A DNA stretch of 64,000 bases. Source: Hydrogenovibrio crunogenus (GTDB lineage: Bacteria; Pseudomonadota; Gammaproteobacteria; Thiomicrospirales; Thiomicrospiraceae). The notes beneath the pieces were generated by a model. It did no database searches and was not told the DNA's origin. It was given only the letters and a program-made list of their open reading frames with translations. The position numbers and the translations under genes were made by a program. Positions 3,341 to 13,297 of this stretch are shown one piece after another. The stretch covers positions 2,294,001 to 2,358,000 of the forward strand of contig NZ_CP032096.1 of the NCBI RefSeq assembly GCF_004786015.1, written 5' to 3'. Within the stretch, counting starts at the first letter, position 1; the number at the start of each line of letters is the position of its first letter.

Positions 3341-3371
3341 CCCGGCTCTTTATCGTATTTTGAATTATCGC

Positions 3372-3452
3372 CGAGGGGTGGCCATACGGCCTGAGATCCT
3401 AAATTGGGAACCCTTATAACCTGATCCAGTTAATACTGGCGTAGGAACAGGC
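3372..3452 (+). ncRNA. TPP riboswitch (THI element)
   Basis: All conserved blocks of the thiamine-pyrophosphate aptamer occur in order: GGGGTG at 3375-3380, CTGAGA at 3391-3396, ACCCTTATAACCTGATC from about 3409, the CCAGT/ACTGG helix and GCGTAGGAA up to about 3447. High TPP should turn the downstream genes off. It stands about 75 bases ahead of a TonB-dependent receptor, the arrangement known for outer-membrane thiamine importers. Confidence 0.95.
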
Positions 3453-3496
3453 TGCAACTCGACTTTGTTTTCTCCAAAGAACCGATTCCTGCCCTG

Positions 3497-3527: not shown

Positions 3528-5621
3528 ATGACTCCTAAAACACCCTTTAAGCCTTTTGCTTATTCCATAGCCCCAACCTTATTATTGAGCTTATTGCATA
3601 GCCCACTTGCCTTATCAGATGATACCGTTGTATTGGCTCCGGTTAAAGTCGAGGCCGACCTAAGACAATCTCAAGCGGAAGATATGCCGGTAAGCATCAC
3701 GGTGATGGATTCTACTGAACTACAAGATGCGGGCGCAACCCACACAGATGACGTTCTATTAAGCGCCCCGAACGTTAACGTTTCAAATCAGAATGCACGC
3801 GTCAAACACATTCAAGTACGCGGCATGGGCGAGCGAGACGAATATACCGGCGCACCAAATGCCAGTGTTGGGCTTGCTATTGATGACATCGATTTCAGTG
3901 GGCTGGGCGGCATTGGCAATTTATTTGACGTACAACAAGTTGAAATCTTACGCGGCCCTCAAAATACGCGTTATGGGCAAAGTGCCATTGGCGGACTGAT
4001 TAACATTCAAAGCAACGATCCGACCCCTTATCGCGAAAGCCTCGTTGAAACCAGCATTGGGCAGTATGGCCATAAAGAACTTGGCGTCATGACAAGTGGT
4101 CCAGTGAGCGATAAGAAAGAGGCCACACAATACCGTATCGCGGTTTTTAAACACCAAAGTGATGGGTTTTATCAAAATGAGACCCTGAACCGCAAAGACA
4201 CTAACGGTAAAGACGAGTTGACGTTGCGTGGTAAGTTGCGCATGTTCGCTACCGCGAACACCACGGTCGATTTAACATTACTACACGCCGATTTTAATGA
4301 TGGCTATGACGCTTGGTCTCGCGACAATACCTTTACCACACGTTCTAACCAACCCGGAAACGACAACCAATTGTCGAATGCCGCTTCAATGAAAGTGACC
4401 TATGAAGGCAATACGGCTTACAACGTGATTTCCACAACCAGCCTCTCAAACACAGACGCACTTTATAATTACGATGGTGACTGGCTGGCCAAAGCGGAAC
4501 AGTTTTATGAAAACCAAAAGCACCGTCGTCATATGTCACAAGACTTACGCTTCCAATCGAAAGAATCAGCGCGTATTTTTAATAACTCAACCGATTGGTT
4601 AATAGGGGCTTATGCTTCCAATATGGATGAAAGTAACTACTCTGATAACTATTACGCCGGTTCAACAGAGTTGATTGACAGTGACTTTAACCACCAAAAA
4701 CTGGCCGTTTACTCACAGCTGGACCAACATGTGAGCTCAAAGCAAACAATGACTTATGGGCTACGTGTCGAACATAATCGACAAACCTTCAAACAAACGA
4801 AAAAAACCTATTCCGACCAAACCCTAACCGATGATTTTTCACCGGATGAAACGCTTTGGGGAGGGTCAATTCATTACAAATATCGTTACAACCCGAACCA
4901 TATGGCTTTTGCCGGAGTTACACGAGGCTATAAAGCGGGCGGGTTCAATGCAGGTAGTGGTGCCAGTACCAACGTCACTTATGATGCTGAAACCTTATTA
5001 AATTATGAAGTTGGGTTAAAATCGAATTATCTGAATAACCGTTTGCAAACCGCCACCACGGTTTTTTATATGGACCGAAACAATCCACAATTTGACGGTT
5101 ATTCGTACGACAGTGCCGGAGAGTGGATTTTCTATAAAGAAAATCTGGATGCGGCTCAAAACTATGGTCTGGAAACCTCGTTTGACTGGCAAGCGACTTA
5201 TGCCTGGCAGCTGTTCGGTTCGTTAGGCTTACTCTTTACCGAAGTGGAAGGGACGCCAGCAAACAGCAACTTTACTATGTCTGGCAGAGATCAAGCGCAT
5301 GCCCCGAACTATCAGTTCCACCTGGGTACACAATATCGCGCTGCCAACGGTTTTTTTGCCCGTACCGAAGTGCGAGGAATGGACAGTTACTATTTTGACA
5401 ATGTCAACGATGGAAAAACGGGGGCGTATCAAATCATTAATGCCCGCATTGGATATGAAGCGAAAGACTGGGAAACCTATGTTTGGGGGAACAACTTAAC
5501 CGATGAGCGTTATGCCACCCGAGGCTTCAAGTTTGACCATTATGACGGCGATGGCGTACAAGAATACATTCGTTTAGGCGATCCGCGTCAATTTGGCGCG
5601 ACCTTGCGAATTCACTTCTAA
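3528..5621 (+). CDS. TonB-dependent outer-membrane receptor, probably for thiamine
   Basis: 697 residues, normal for the family. A signal peptide (hydrophobic about 13-30) is followed by a TonB-box-like TVVLAPVKVEA, a plug domain with LRGPQNTRYGQSAIGG, and a long beta-rich barrel ending in aromatic residues (GATLRIHF), typical for outer-membrane insertion. TonB receptors take up scarce molecules using inner-membrane energy. The TPP riboswitch upstream and the YkoF-like and PnuT-like genes downstream make thiamine, or a precursor, the likely substrate. Start chosen for the AAGGA at 3516-3520. The substrate rests on context only. Confidence 0.88.
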   Translation: MTPKTPFKPFAYSIAPTLLLSLLHSPLALSDDTVVLAPVKVEADLRQSQAEDMPVSITVMDSTELQDAGATHTDDVLLSAPNVNVSNQNARVKHIQVRGMGERDEYTGAPNASVGLAIDDIDFSGLGGIGNLFDVQQVEILRGPQNTRYGQSAIGGLINIQSNDPTPYRESLVETSIGQYGHKELGVMTSGPVSDKKEATQYRIAVFKHQSDGFYQNETLNRKDTNGKDELTLRGKLRMFATANTTVDLTLLHADFNDGYDAWSRDNTFTTRSNQPGNDNQLSNAASMKVTYEGNTAYNVISTTSLSNTDALYNYDGDWLAKAEQFYENQKHRRHMSQDLRFQSKESARIFNNSTDWLIGAYASNMDESNYSDNYYAGSTELIDSDFNHQKLAVYSQLDQHVSSKQTMTYGLRVEHNRQTFKQTKKTYSDQTLTDDFSPDETLWGGSIHYKYRYNPNHMAFAGVTRGYKAGGFNAGSGASTNVTYDAETLLNYEVGLKSNYLNNRLQTATTVFYMDRNNPQFDGYSYDSAGEWIFYKENLDAAQNYGLETSFDWQATYAWQLFGSLGLLFTEVEGTPANSNFTMSGRDQAHAPNYQFHLGTQYRAANGFFARTEVRGMDSYYFDNVNDGKTGAYQIINARIGYEAKDWETYVWGNNLTDERYATRGFKFDHYDGDGVQEYIRLGDPRQFGATLRIHF

Positions 5622-7497: not shown

Positions 7498-10344
7498 TTA
7501 TTTGGCTTCCGTTCTCGTTAAGTATCGCTCAACCACGTTTAAGAAATTCTCAACATCTAACGGCTTGGTTAAATAATCGTCAAACCCGGCACGCTTCCCT
7601 CGTCGAATATCATGCGACATGGCATTCGCCGTAATCGCAACCACAGGCACTTGACTGACTTCACTGTCTTTCTTAAACACTTCTAACACTTCATACCCAC
7701 TCATACCTGGCATATTGATATCCAGTAAGATTAAATCCGGTTTATTCGCCTTCGCTAATTCAATTCCAAGTTGAGGTTCATGCGCGGTAATTAAATGGGT
7801 ATGATCTCGTTTGGCTAAAACATGTGACACCAGCTTTAAGTTGGCCGGGTTATCTTCAATGTATAAAATGGTTTTGCCCAATGCCCCTTCTTGATCTGAA
7901 TCTATCACCAAGGTCTGATCAAAATCCGCTTCAAATGGGTGGCATGAATCAATGTGCAACTCCACAAAGAAACAACTCCCTTTGGGTTTATTGGCTTGAT
8001 AACCAATCTCACCCCCCATCAACTCAATCAGCGTTTTTGTAATGGACAACCCGACACCTGTCCCTTCAATGCCGCCGCCTTCTTGCCCCAAACGATTAAA
8101 CGGCTGAAAAAGCTCCGACTGCTTACCCTCTGGTACGCCCACCCCATTGTCTTTGACCGAAATCCTCAGGGTATTTTCGGATTGCAATGCACACTCCACC
8201 CAGACTTGGCCATGGTCATCATTATATTTCACGGCATTCGACAACAAATTCAATAGAATTTGTTTGAGACGAACACGATCCGCACGGACATACAGCTCAC
8301 TCAAAGCAGGAATATCCAATGAAATGCCTTTATTCTCGGCAACCGGTAACATCAAGTTACGACACTCCTCAAGCACTTCTTTTAAACCGACTGGTTCAAT
8401 CGATAAATCAACATTACCCGATTCAATTTTTGCTAAATCCAACACATCATTAATTAAATCAAGCAAATGATTTCCGGCTTTTACAATTTCATAGATATTG
8501 TCTTTTTGATCAGCGGTTAGGTTCTCATCCATATCCAACAACTGGGCAAACCCCAGCACCGCATTTAACGGCGTTCTTAACTCATGACTCATGCTGGATA
8601 AAAATTGCGATTTAGCTTGGCTGGCTTTTTCCGCTTCATTACGCTCTTTTAAAATTTCTTCATGCATTTCTTCTTGCTGAGACAGCATGCGTTTAACGTA
8701 AATCAAGGCACCATAGTTTTGGGTAAAAGATGCCAAAAACTCAACCATTTCATCATCATACCCCTCAGGACGATTTGCAAGACCATACATACCGACCAGT
8801 TTAGAACCATAAAAGACCGGTACCCCCAAAAAGGCGTTCAAATCTGGGTGACCTTCCGGCAGTCCGCCACTTCTCGCATCCTGCTTAGGATCATTACTAA
8901 TCACTACACGCTGAGTGGTGATGGCATGTCCAAACAACGTATTAAGGTTTCTGAACTCCAGCCCTTCTGGGGCATTTTCATCATAAAATTTTCGAGTTTC
9001 TTTATTCCAGGCAATATTGGTCAACGCATGGGTTTTTAAATAGCTTCGCCCGTCTGCATCTTGTAACACTTCGCCTATAAAACCATAGTCACTTTTGGTC
9101 AATTTCAGAATTCGGCCCAATAAATAATCGGCCACCTCTGAAAGATCCTTGTAAACCATAAATAGATTCGTGGCTTTCCAAAGCGTTTCAAGTAGCTCTT
9201 TTTGTTTTTTCAATTTATATTCAATATGAATATTATTGGTAATGTCTCGGATGATAATGGTAAAGCCATCCTGGTTAGAGTCTTTAATCGGACCAATGGC
9301 CGCTTCAATCGGAAAGATCCCACCTTCCTTATGCAACCCCTTAACACGACCATCTTGCCCCATTAAACTGGTGCGATCGAAGCTATTGGCATTCAGGTTA
9401 TGGATAATTTCGGTATGGTATTTTCGGTAGGCGCGTGGCATCAGCATCGCGACATTATTACCAATCAATTCCTTTGCGGAGTACCCAAACAATTTTTCCA
9501 TTGCCGGGTTTACTTCCATGATTCTGCCATCCTTATTGGTCTTTAAAATACCATCTGGCGCGGCATGAAGAATACTTTCCAAGTCTGCCAATGAGTTTTG
9601 CAACTCGTTTTTAGCTTCAGTCAACTGGAAGGTTCGAGACTTAACTTCCTGTTCTAACTCAACGGTATAGGACTGTAACCGACGCTTAGAATAACTGACC
9701 AGTGAAATCACCAGAATACTGATCACCAACACCAGAATAATGACTAGCCAGACTTGCTGTTTAAAGTTCTTATTTCGTTCTGTTTTTTTGGCAAGATGCT
9801 CTTGTTGTAACCTTTCGATGGAATGACCAACAAGCAAGTGAAATGAAGAAAGCAGTCCATCCGCATAATCCTGCGTCGGAATCACTTCCGTATAGAGTAC
9901 TTCTTTGGCTTCTTGAATGGCATCAAAGTCCAGCAGTAGGCTTTGATAATAAAATTGTTTAGGAAGGCCTTTTTCTAAGATCTGGTTATGTTCAACCAGA
10001 ATTTTTAACTCTTCTTTTTGATCTGCTAATCGTCGAATTCGAGCACTTTCTTCAACAATTTTATGCCGTATTTGTGAGATTTTATTGAATATTTCACGTT
10101 GTTCGGCCTTATCATCGTGCACCACAGCATCTTTCAACAACAATTTGAGCTGCGTTCGCAGGTCGTAAATCTTTGTTAGCGTTTCCAGCTTGTTACGCTC
10201 AATGGAAAGCTGGCCCCAGCTTTGTCTTTCCTGCTGGTTACCTTGTTCAAAAACTTGATAAAGACCGTAAACGGCTATAAGCGTTGCTGAAAAAGCAATG
10301 ACCAAAGGCCATTCATAGAACTTTAAAAGGGTCTTTTTAATCAT
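7498..10344 (-). CDS. Hybrid sensor histidine kinase (TM-PAS-GAF-HisKA-HATPase-receiver)
   Basis: 948 residues. Two membrane helices (about 12-30 and 199-218) bracket a helical periplasmic sensor region. A PAS domain (about 255-370, AAPDGILKTNKDGRIMEVNP), a GAF domain (about 385-550), the dimerisation/phosphoacceptor site SMSHELRTPLN with His587, ATP-binding boxes (NAVKY near 703; DNGVGVP and GTGVGLSI near 733-767) and a receiver domain with phosphoacceptor Asp875 (LILLDINMPGM) follow. Such proteins autophosphorylate on His and pass phosphate to their own receiver and then to a partner. No output regulator is adjacent, so the target is unknown. It is separate from the thiamine genes. Confidence 0.93.
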   Translation of the reverse strand: MIKKTLLKFYEWPLVIAFSATLIAVYGLYQVFEQGNQQERQSWGQLSIERNKLETLTKIYDLRTQLKLLLKDAVVHDDKAEQREIFNKISQIRHKIVEESARIRRLADQKEELKILVEHNQILEKGLPKQFYYQSLLLDFDAIQEAKEVLYTEVIPTQDYADGLLSSFHLLVGHSIERLQQEHLAKKTERNKNFKQQVWLVIILVLVISILVISLVSYSKRRLQSYTVELEQEVKSRTFQLTEAKNELQNSLADLESILHAAPDGILKTNKDGRIMEVNPAMEKLFGYSAKELIGNNVAMLMPRAYRKYHTEIIHNLNANSFDRTSLMGQDGRVKGLHKEGGIFPIEAAIGPIKDSNQDGFTIIIRDITNNIHIEYKLKKQKELLETLWKATNLFMVYKDLSEVADYLLGRILKLTKSDYGFIGEVLQDADGRSYLKTHALTNIAWNKETRKFYDENAPEGLEFRNLNTLFGHAITTQRVVISNDPKQDARSGGLPEGHPDLNAFLGVPVFYGSKLVGMYGLANRPEGYDDEMVEFLASFTQNYGALIYVKRMLSQQEEMHEEILKERNEAEKASQAKSQFLSSMSHELRTPLNAVLGFAQLLDMDENLTADQKDNIYEIVKAGNHLLDLINDVLDLAKIESGNVDLSIEPVGLKEVLEECRNLMLPVAENKGISLDIPALSELYVRADRVRLKQILLNLLSNAVKYNDDHGQVWVECALQSENTLRISVKDNGVGVPEGKQSELFQPFNRLGQEGGGIEGTGVGLSITKTLIELMGGEIGYQANKPKGSCFFVELHIDSCHPFEADFDQTLVIDSDQEGALGKTILYIEDNPANLKLVSHVLAKRDHTHLITAHEPQLGIELAKANKPDLILLDINMPGMSGYEVLEVFKKDSEVSQVPVVAITANAMSHDIRRGKRAGFDDYLTKPLDVENFLNVVERYLTRTEAK

Positions 10345-10391
10345 TTAATCTAGACCTACCATTCCATGCACCCTTTCAGCAACCACTCAAG

Positions 10392-10775
10392 TTATTTTGC
10401 TTCATCAATCATCTTGATGATTTTTTGCTCAACTTCTTTTGCAATCTCTTGCAGTGCTGCATCATCCGATAAAGTCGCTAACATTTTTGCCGGCTCAATC
10501 ATCCCAATTTTGGTTTGACCCTTTTCGGTATACACAGAAATACGGCAAGGCAAAGCCATATTCAATCGCATATCAATGCCCATGACCTGTGCCGCTTTAC
10601 CAGGATTGCACACTTCAAACACTTTACAGTTCTCAGCAAACTCAAGCCCTTTGCTTCGTAATGTTTCGCCTAAATTATGCACATACAGCACACCAAATTG
10701 ATTGCTTTTCACCGCAGCATCCAGATCTTCCGCTGCTTGTTCGAATGTTTTTTTGGTATCAACGACATAATACAT
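10392..10775 (-). CDS. DUF302 protein (chromosomal paralogue)
   Basis: 127 residues from the ATG at 10775, which has AAGGAAG upstream; the frame is open 10 codons earlier without good support. The DUF302 pattern is clear: SKGLEFAENCKVFEVCNP, then DMRLNMALPCRISVYTE, with three conserved cysteines. No signal peptide. Function of the family is unknown; members occur in sulfur oxidisers and metal-stress clusters. A paralogue with the same length sits in the copper cluster at 36982-37365, sharing among others the whole RLNMALPCRISV block. Confidence 0.85.
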   Translation of the reverse strand: MYYVVDTKKTFEQAAEDLDAAVKSNQFGVLYVHNLGETLRSKGLEFAENCKVFEVCNPGKAAQVMGIDMRLNMALPCRISVYTEKGQTKIGMIEPAKMLATLSDDAALQEIAKEVEQKIIKMIDEAK

Positions 10776-10870
10776 AATATTTTCTTCCTTATATTTTAAA
10801 GACAACGTCTTATTGAACTGGTTTTTTGAATGAATATCAAAAAATCTTATTCAATTTTTTCGTCGCCAAG

Positions 10871-11917
10871 TTATTTTTCATTGGATAAACGTGATTTCGG
10901 TATATTATTGCCCAATAAAACCGCGATTGCTCGGGTATCTTTATTCTGAAACAGGGCTATTTGAACGATCATTGTCAAAGGGATTGATAAAACCATCCCA
11001 ACCGGACCAAACATCCACCCCCAGACCATTAATGATAAAAACACTACAAGAGGGGATAAACCAAACTCGAATCCCATCAAATGCGGTTCAATGAAATTTC
11101 CTAAAACCACATTGATGATTAAAAAACCGCTCATGACTAAGATCGCATCAAAAACGCCAATCTGGATCAATGCCAGAAAAACCGGCGGGATAGCTGAAAT
11201 TAACGAACCGATGTTTGGAATATAATTCATCAGCATCGCCAAAACACCCCATAAGTATGGAAAATCAACCTCGAGAAACATCAATAACAGCGTGACTAGC
11301 ACACCGGTGATAAAACTGATCACTGTTTTAATGAAAATATATCTATTCACTTGTTTAAAAAAGCCGGCAATCGCTTGAATTTTAAAATCTGAATTCGGCC
11401 AAGCTGCTTGAAATTTCTGTGTCAGACTGCTTTCTTCCATCAACAAAAAAATCGCAATAAACAGCACCAAAAAAGTGTTCATGATAAAAACACTGACGCC
11501 CGTCAAAGTATTCGCCATAAACTGAATGAGTGATTCGGAGCTAAAATGCTCGTTTAACGTGGCTTCAAAAAAAGGAAAGGACCAATACTGAAATAGCGGC
11601 GACAGCTCAACCAATAAATCATTCAACCCTTTTTCATATTCTGGAATATTATTATTAAACGTTTGCGCTGAATGGCTCAAGATTAAAAAGAACAGCATCA
11701 ACAATGTGATCCAGACACCAAGCATCAAAATGATGGCCAACCAGTTCGGTACGGAATAACGCATCATAAGTCGAATGAAAGGGATAGAAATAATGGAGAT
11801 AAAAATCGCTAGTAAAATCGGAACGACGACACTTTCAGCCAGTTTTAACGCTGTCAAAATAATGATGACAGAGGCCATGCCGACCAGCCAAGATAACCCT
11901 TTATTCTCTCTTATCAT
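10871..11917 (-). CDS. AI-2E/PerM-family membrane transporter
   Basis: 348 residues with about eight hydrophobic helices and the family's C-terminal signature: LWGVLAMLMNYIPNIGSLISA, then NFIEPHLMGFEFGLSPLVVFLSLMVWGW (residues about 215-305). Members export varied substrates (autoinducer-2, Na+, and others), so the substrate cannot be told. It follows no obvious operon partner; the DUF302 gene lies 95 bases downstream in the same direction. Confidence 0.88.
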   Translation of the reverse strand: MIRENKGLSWLVGMASVIIILTALKLAESVVVPILLAIFISIISIPFIRLMMRYSVPNWLAIILMLGVWITLLMLFFLILSHSAQTFNNNIPEYEKGLNDLLVELSPLFQYWSFPFFEATLNEHFSSESLIQFMANTLTGVSVFIMNTFLVLFIAIFLLMEESSLTQKFQAAWPNSDFKIQAIAGFFKQVNRYIFIKTVISFITGVLVTLLLMFLEVDFPYLWGVLAMLMNYIPNIGSLISAIPPVFLALIQIGVFDAILVMSGFLIINVVLGNFIEPHLMGFEFGLSPLVVFLSLMVWGWMFGPVGMVLSIPLTMIVQIALFQNKDTRAIAVLLGNNIPKSRLSNEK

Positions 11918-12270: not shown

Positions 12271-12332
12271 AAGATACTCCTTCGATTGTAATGAAAAGCC
12301 AAATCAATTTTAATAATTTATAAAATAATCAT

Positions 12333-12361
12333 TTGACATTCATTTGTCTGCTCTCTACAAT
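12333..12361 (+). promoter_or_regulatory. Near-consensus sigma-70 promoter of the truncated tRNA-Phe
   Basis: TTGACA at 12333-12338, a 17-base spacer, and TACAAT at 12356-12361. Predicted start near 12368, about 11 bases before the tRNA 5' end. One of the best promoter matches in the window. Confidence 0.8.
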
Positions 12362-12378
12362 ACGCAAATTCAAATTTA

Positions 12379-12424
12379 GGCCACATAGCTCAGTCGGTAG
12401 AGCAAAGATTGAAAATCCTTTTAC
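12379..12424 (+). pseudogene. tRNA-Phe (GAA), 5' half only
   Basis: The acceptor 5' strand GGCCACA, TA, an intact D arm (GCTC-AGTCGGTA-GAGC) and an anticodon loop TTGAAAA (anticodon GAA) are recognisable. The anticodon stem has an A-C mismatch, and the variable loop, T arm and 3' acceptor strand (TGTGGCC expected) are missing. The sequence changes to unrelated A-rich DNA after about 12424. This cannot make a functional tRNA. It marks a rearrangement or old integration site at the left border of the accessory region. Confidence 0.8.
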
Positions 12425-12458
12425 CCACACAAATTAGAAACAACACAAACATACTTAA

Positions 12459-12484
12459 ACCGCTTTAAATAGCGGTTTTTTTAT
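12459..12484 (+). terminator. Factor-independent terminator after the truncated tRNA
   Basis: AACCGCT and AGCGGTT form a 7-base stem with a 6-base loop, followed by a T run. It would end a transcript of roughly 110 bases that begins at the promoter at 12333-12361. Confidence 0.8.
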
Positions 12485-12589: not shown

Positions 12590-13297
12590 ATGACCTCTTC
12601 TCCGTCAAGCCATAGTAACAATTTAGATACTATTCGAACAGAGATTATTCGAACCTCTTTTTCAAACTTTCGACAGAAATTTTCTATTCAAAACAACTTG
12701 TTTTCATGCGTTCCTGGAATTAATTCAGAATTAGCTTCAAAGCTCTATGAACAAATCTCCCCTATCAGCTTAACTGAATACGATATAACACAAAAAAAAC
12801 AACGGACGCACGTAGCAACACCATTAATTTTCATTGTTGATGCTTTAAAACACTTTGAAAAAATGCACGAAATATTGATTGATGATGAGCTTATTGAAAA
12901 CAAGGATGAAATTTCAAATAGCTGGAATGAGATAAAAGAGGTCACAAGTATAGCCTTACCTTTCTTTGAAAAGCAGTCTGAAACATACCCCTTTTTGAGT
13001 AGCGAAAAATTTATTCAAGCTATCCAACATAACTTCTCAAAACCGATTGATTCTGTTGAAATCGAAACCCAAATCCGACGATCAATTCATGGAATGAAAA
13101 CTAAACAATTTGTTTACCTTTCTTTGATTGAACCAATTATTCACAATCCTTCAGAAGAAAAACAGCAATACATTCACGACTTGATGACACTAAAGGCAAT
13201 CATATTCAATGCCTTTTTTTACCAACCTTTTTATTGCAATTTTAACCATTCTATCTCGAGTGCCCTGTGTAGTGGTAAAGTGAAATTGGCCACCTAA
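12590..13297 (+). CDS. Unknown protein, 3' end replaced by IS-X
   Basis: Native sequence covers 226 codons (12590-13267); the last 9 residues and the stop come from the IS-X terminal repeat, so the true C-terminus is lost. The product is mostly helical, rich in Ser, Ile, Glu and Lys, with no signal peptide or membrane segment, and I recognise no domain. Cys/His motifs are absent. The low G+C suggests acquired DNA. No strong ribosome binding site is visible before the ATG. Probably non-functional or a hybrid-tailed protein. Confidence 0.5.
   Translation: MTSSPSSHSNNLDTIRTEIIRTSFSNFRQKFSIQNNLFSCVPGINSELASKLYEQISPISLTEYDITQKKQRTHVATPLIFIVDALKHFEKMHEILIDDELIENKDEISNSWNEIKEVTSIALPFFEKQSETYPFLSSEKFIQAIQHNFSKPIDSVEIETQIRRSIHGMKTKQFVYLSLIEPIIHNPSEEKQQYIHDLMTLKAIIFNAFFYQPFYCNFNHSISSALCSGKVKLAT

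Follow-up and report, generated by a model that had tools for sequence, protein, structure and literature searches.

What is a complete promoter doing in front of only the 5' half of a tRNA gene, and why does a terminator follow directly behind it? The question is raised by positions 12333-12484 of the window, that is, of the whole stretch of 64,000 nucleotides analyzed here (NZ_CP032096.1, 2,294,001 to 2,358,000, Hydrogenovibrio crunogenus; genome G000 in our numbering of the family). The original prediction saw either simple debris or a small RNA derived from a tRNA half. The unit and the gene behind it comprise the following features:

12333-12361, + strand, orphaned host tRNA-Phe promoter TTGACA-17-TACAAT at attL (attL of genome G011 compared with the promoter of the island-free genome G005, 97% identical)
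12379-12416, + strand, attL core, comprising the tRNA-Phe 5' half as far as the anticodon loop (the region alike in the second copy is wider, 12306-12420)
12420-12456, + strand, spacer of the element left end, unlike between elements and not conserved
12457-12483, + strand, intrinsic terminator of the element left end, proposed insulator
12590-13297, + strand, truncated first gene of the left-end operon, 235 aa, matching the first 226 residues of an 896-aa G011 protein

The -35 (TTGACA, 12333-12338) and -10 (TACAAT, 12356-12361) hexamers are 17 nt apart and match the consensus at 11 of 12 positions. Promoter-like sites in this A+T-rich region are not above chance (3 found vs. 3.9 expected), and the promoter is credible because its position and sequence agree with those of the tRNA-Phe promoters in the second copy of the same genome and in relatives. 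The tRNA-Phe 5' sequence, GGCCACATAGCTCAGTCGGTAGAGCAAAG-ATTGAAAATCC, has its first base at 12379 and is present up to the anticodon loop, in line with the earlier description, but it is one G short in the anticodon stem, which reads AAAGATTG at attL and AAAGGATTG in the intact gene. Some 36-40 non-tRNA bases separate it from the terminator hairpin (12457-12478; 8 pairs, 4 G-C), after which a T run extends to about 12483. Judged from its sequence, the unit looks transcribable and terminated, with a predicted RNA of 116 nt from about 12368 to 12483, and the claim that no tRNA can form agrees with ARAGORN, which found none in the window. The predicted folding of this RNA is slightly more stable than that of shuffled sequences (z -2.6), probably owing in large part to the terminator hairpin. 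The exact tRNA-fragment pattern had no match in the viral contigs searched, a plasmid search with the region returned chaB homologs only, and Rfam across the window returned, away from the unit, only a TPP riboswitch (3364-3465), which lies upstream of a 697-aa ORF at 3528.

The explanation lies 60.6 kb downstream, in a copy of window 12306-12420 that is 86% identical. There the second promoter and 5' half continue into an intact tRNA-Phe(GAA), followed by tRNA-Leu(TAG), and the two tRNA starts have the same orientation and stand 60,567 bp apart. The intact tRNA-Phe that was to be sought elsewhere in the genome is therefore present, whereas no orphan 3' half lies near another border; the 3' half is still in place and was given a new promoter and 5' half by the element. 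The right end is composed as follows:

12417-64000 of the window, no strand, island portion within the window, which goes on to the rebuilt tRNA-Phe
2366946-2367021 of contig C1 of G000 (72,946-73,021 in window numbering), rebuilt tRNA-Phe
2364859-2366157 of contig C1, tyrosine integrase, 433 aa (PF12167 and PF00589)

Directly inside the rebuilt tRNA-Phe lie the genes for an HTH protein of 83 aa, a protein of 85 aa that has no match in Pfam, and the tyrosine integrase, whose uninterrupted ORF is outside the att site, about 0.8 kb from the rebuilt tRNA-Phe, and points the other way. The locus thus has an intact tRNA at one end, a same-orientation fragment at the other and an integrase inside, beside one att site, as tRNA islands do. 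We conclude with high confidence that the unit is the attL of a 60.6-kb tRNA-Phe integrative island, and its terminator probably stops transcription from the orphaned promoter before the left-end genes. The left edge of an accessory block, as the unit had been called, is accordingly the left junction of this island. Its cargo (window 16429-60872 and L005:1043-4258) includes an RND efflux system, a P-type metal ATPase with a YHS domain, multicopper oxidases, a MerA-like reductase, a phosphonate uptake and C-P lyase cluster (PhnI, PhnJ) and a type I methylase gene; no conjugation genes were found among the selected cargo genes scanned. For Hydrogenovibrio sp. SP-41 the published island predictions come from IslandPath-DIMOB only (PMC6501319), so this may be the first exact mapping of the borders.

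Compared with known systems, the island is of the Islander type (PMC4383910) in having an intact tRNA and a same-orientation fragment at its ends, an integrase at one end and a rebuilt tRNA, but it differs from that type in two respects: what is displaced is the 5' half together with its promoter, where a 3' end is usual, and a new promoter stands before the rebuilt tRNA. The Islander algorithm rejects 5' fragments only if they lie downstream (PMC4383910), so the present one would be allowed. In bacterial elements the rebuilt tRNA retains its original promoter "with very few exceptions," in the wording of PMC8371274, which cites Williams (2002). Archaeal pTN3-like integrases are described as integrating into the 5' half at the cost of the original promoter, a behavior called "seldomly encountered in bacteria" (PMC8371274, PMC5495485); the polarity is thus rare in bacteria, with precedents. 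Like the pTN3-like elements, the island has its attB in the tRNA 5' half and a rebuilt tRNA parted from its original promoter (PMC8371274, PMC5495485). However, pTN3, with attP inside its integrase gene, splits that gene on integration, while the gene is uninterrupted here, and the integrase promoter is said to serve the pTN3 tRNA, while here the element bears a tRNA-type promoter. The ICEKp1-type islands (PMC13023037) also have a tRNA promoter that points into the element with hairpins after it; there, however, the tRNA-Asn remains whole, at the 3' end, and int is transcribed from its promoter; the promoter in the present island is an orphan directed at the end opposite int.

The anatomy recurs in the family. 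The integrase clade (65-98% identity) adjoins tRNA-Phe in nine family genomes: besides G000, at eight further sites (G008, G011, G028, G030, G032, G042, G055, and G062) the integrase lies directly upstream of tRNA-Phe and points away, the G042 contig stopping inside tRNA-Phe. An orphan promoter with 5' half occurs in seven of the ten genomes having the clade; in G055, G062, and G015, where the integrase is present, a second 5' copy was looked for and not found. When 63 family genomes were surveyed for the pattern, at least two tRNA-Phe 5' sequences were found in G000, G008, G011, G016, G028, G030, G032, and G042, seven of which have the integrase, while G016 has a second copy without it; the remaining surveyed genomes have one or none, and so do the integrase-free family genomes except G016. 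The extra copies in integrase-bearing genomes consist of the promoter and the 5' half to the anticodon loop, followed by unrelated DNA, and G008 has two of them, one lacking the -35 region. The same left end stands twice in G008, 19 kb apart (C20:11350 and C20:30443; L102, L103), one copy coming after an integrase and a tRNA-type promoter, an order of sequences suggesting that two elements inserted in tandem into a single tRNA-Phe site. G000 itself carries a third promoter and tRNA-Phe 5' piece (C1:834690-834743; L003:1501-1554; L006:4498-4755), which ends after the D arm (GAGCAA) and is fused to the end of a short ORF, with no obvious element there; it may have been left by a related element that once integrated at a secondary site.

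More distant relatives of the integrase use other tRNA genes. A search of GTDB genomes turned up a 50%-identical integrase in Solimonas, where it precedes a tRNA-Met(CAT) that is, judged by sequence, probably the initiator. This tRNA gene is cut with the same polarity: the second copy in that genome consists of a leader and 5' half in which one G of the anticodon stem is missing, with a strong terminator behind; among the 58 genomes of its family searched, this was the sole one with two copies. Relatives of about 50% identity adjoin tRNA-His (G033 and contig C4 of G008) and have in common with the present element the integrase family and, by inspection, small MerR/xis-like and HTH-like genes upstream. 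Unlike here, the displaced piece in G033 is the 3' half, the usual polarity, so that polarity differs within the integrase family.

Which partner supplies which promoter can be read from the elements of G000 and G011, which agree at the left end (98-99% over 0.85-0.9 kb), in a 12-kb stretch of the middle and at the right end. Their left ends stand behind different promoters, while almost the same promoter precedes the rebuilt tRNA-Phe in both, and the left promoter block of G011 is matched in G005, a genome free of such an integrase, by the promoter and 5' half of an intact tRNA-Phe (97% over 101 bp). Taken together, this indicates that the host promoter stays at attL and the element supplies its own. 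The right flank is conserved between G011 and G005 (90% over 5.4 kb); the left chromosomal flank has no match to an empty site in relatives and is uninformative, since it differs among island-free genomes too.

The single-G deletion at attL is common to the G000/G011 element and the different element of G008, and similar deletions are found in G028, G032, and Solimonas. Its recurrence across elements argues that it is element-derived and that the crossover falls upstream of it, and the G011 leader places the crossover downstream of the leader; recombination would thus have taken place within about the first 28 tRNA bases, most likely in the D arm. The G000 leader between the -10 hexamer and the tRNA is identical at both ends, which would not be expected of a simple D-arm crossover with a donor from another species. 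The element-borne half tRNAs (window 12403-12416; L107, L116, L118, L120, L173) are repeatedly short of at least one anticodon-stem base, in different elements and in two different tRNAs. Such losses may keep attP from acting as a tRNA, or may help to orient recombination.

On this basis we propose that the tyrosine integrase would recombine an element-borne tRNA-Phe 5' half with the chromosomal gene, crossing over inside the 5' half. At the left border the host promoter and host 5' half would remain, joined to the element left end, while at the right border the host 3' half would receive the element promoter and 5' half, giving an intact, expressible tRNA-Phe. The orphaned host promoter would then face into the element, and the element terminator, placed directly after the tRNA-derived sequence, would halt its transcription before the left-end genes. 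In the circular form, the terminator would also shield the left operon from the tRNA promoter of the element itself.

The terminator recurs as well. Under a rule asking for a hairpin of at least 6 pairs, at least 4 of them G-C, with a T-rich tail and within 105 nt of the anticodon loop, a terminator was found in five of eight unlike left ends (G000 and G011 counted once), against frequencies of 1.2% for random windows, 1.9% for intergenic windows and 0.3% for shuffles. Because some left ends may share an ancestor, this statistic is optimistic, and the nominal P near 1e-7 understates the true value. By the same rule the left ends of G008, G032, and G016 have no terminator. The hairpins of G000, G028, G030, and G042 occupy similar positions and differ in sequence on both arms, so that pairing has been kept while the sequence changed. 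The terminator is therefore probably an insulator that shields the left end from the orphaned tRNA promoter. A broader proposal, which we consider possible but would not yet call probable, is that a promoter-half-tRNA-terminator cassette sits in attP and that its terminator was selected to shield or tune the left operon in both the integrated and the circular state, as a design rule of this reverse polarity. A literature search for an insulating terminator at such left ends found none in titles and abstracts, which is weak evidence of absence.

What would be shielded is a left-end operon. In G011, G028, G032, and G042 the first element gene is long, points inward and begins 212-626 nt past the break, and in G011 the products of the first two genes (L099:5627-8317 and 8304-11465), of 896 and 1053 aa, match tyrosine recombinases weakly. 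G000 lacks the second gene and retains the first in a truncated form of 235 aa, the truncation lying near an IS-like transposase gene pair. Searches of the operon proteins against PADLOC and NCBIfam returned no family and weak recombinase matches only; the operon might be part of the Gamma-Mobile-Trio.

The same hairpin could be read otherwise, as an attenuator that passes a controlled share of the transcription from the tRNA promoter into the recombinase-like operon. The inward first genes of the four genomes just named and the weak recombinase matches of the G011 proteins would fit such a role, and ICEKp1 is reported to use a tRNA promoter and stem-loops before int in this manner (PMC13023037), but the operon is truncated in the window's own island and G008 and G032 are without the terminator; we regard attenuation as unlikely. 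It is much harder still to see the promoter, half tRNA and terminator as a dedicated small-RNA gene, kept for a tRNA-derived regulator. Although the promoter hexamers are retained at every attL having a promoter, and the discrete RNA of 116 nt that is predicted folds somewhat better than its shuffles, the promoter comes from each host, the terminator is absent at some left ends and the integrase site already accounts for the tRNA part. Beyond that part no conserved RNA was found when the spacer was compared between elements: the bases between tRNA part and hairpin are unrelated, which speaks against a conserved RNA function, and we judge this reading to be very improbable.

Least credible is the suggestion of simple debris, in which a duplicated tRNA-Phe decayed by chance and a terminator happens to stand behind it. 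The shorter promoter and D-arm fragment at 834.7 kb, without an obvious element, could speak for it. Yet the break is at the same place in seven genomes and tied to an adjacent integrase, and the same element end is found behind different host promoters. The recurring anatomy led us to reject such decay: the unit is a recombination junction (attL) with the same arrangement in six other family genomes.

Read as the attL of an integrative island, the unit documents a bacterial integrase lineage, found in four genera of one family and joined by a distant relative in Solimonas, whose target is the 5' half of tRNA genes, a site rarely reported; with every insertion the tRNA gene exchanges its promoter for another. 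This polarity leaves behind a tRNA promoter that would fire into the element, a problem to which the recurrent terminator may be a simple answer. The signature of promoter, 5' half and terminator can moreover be used to map the left ends of such islands exactly.
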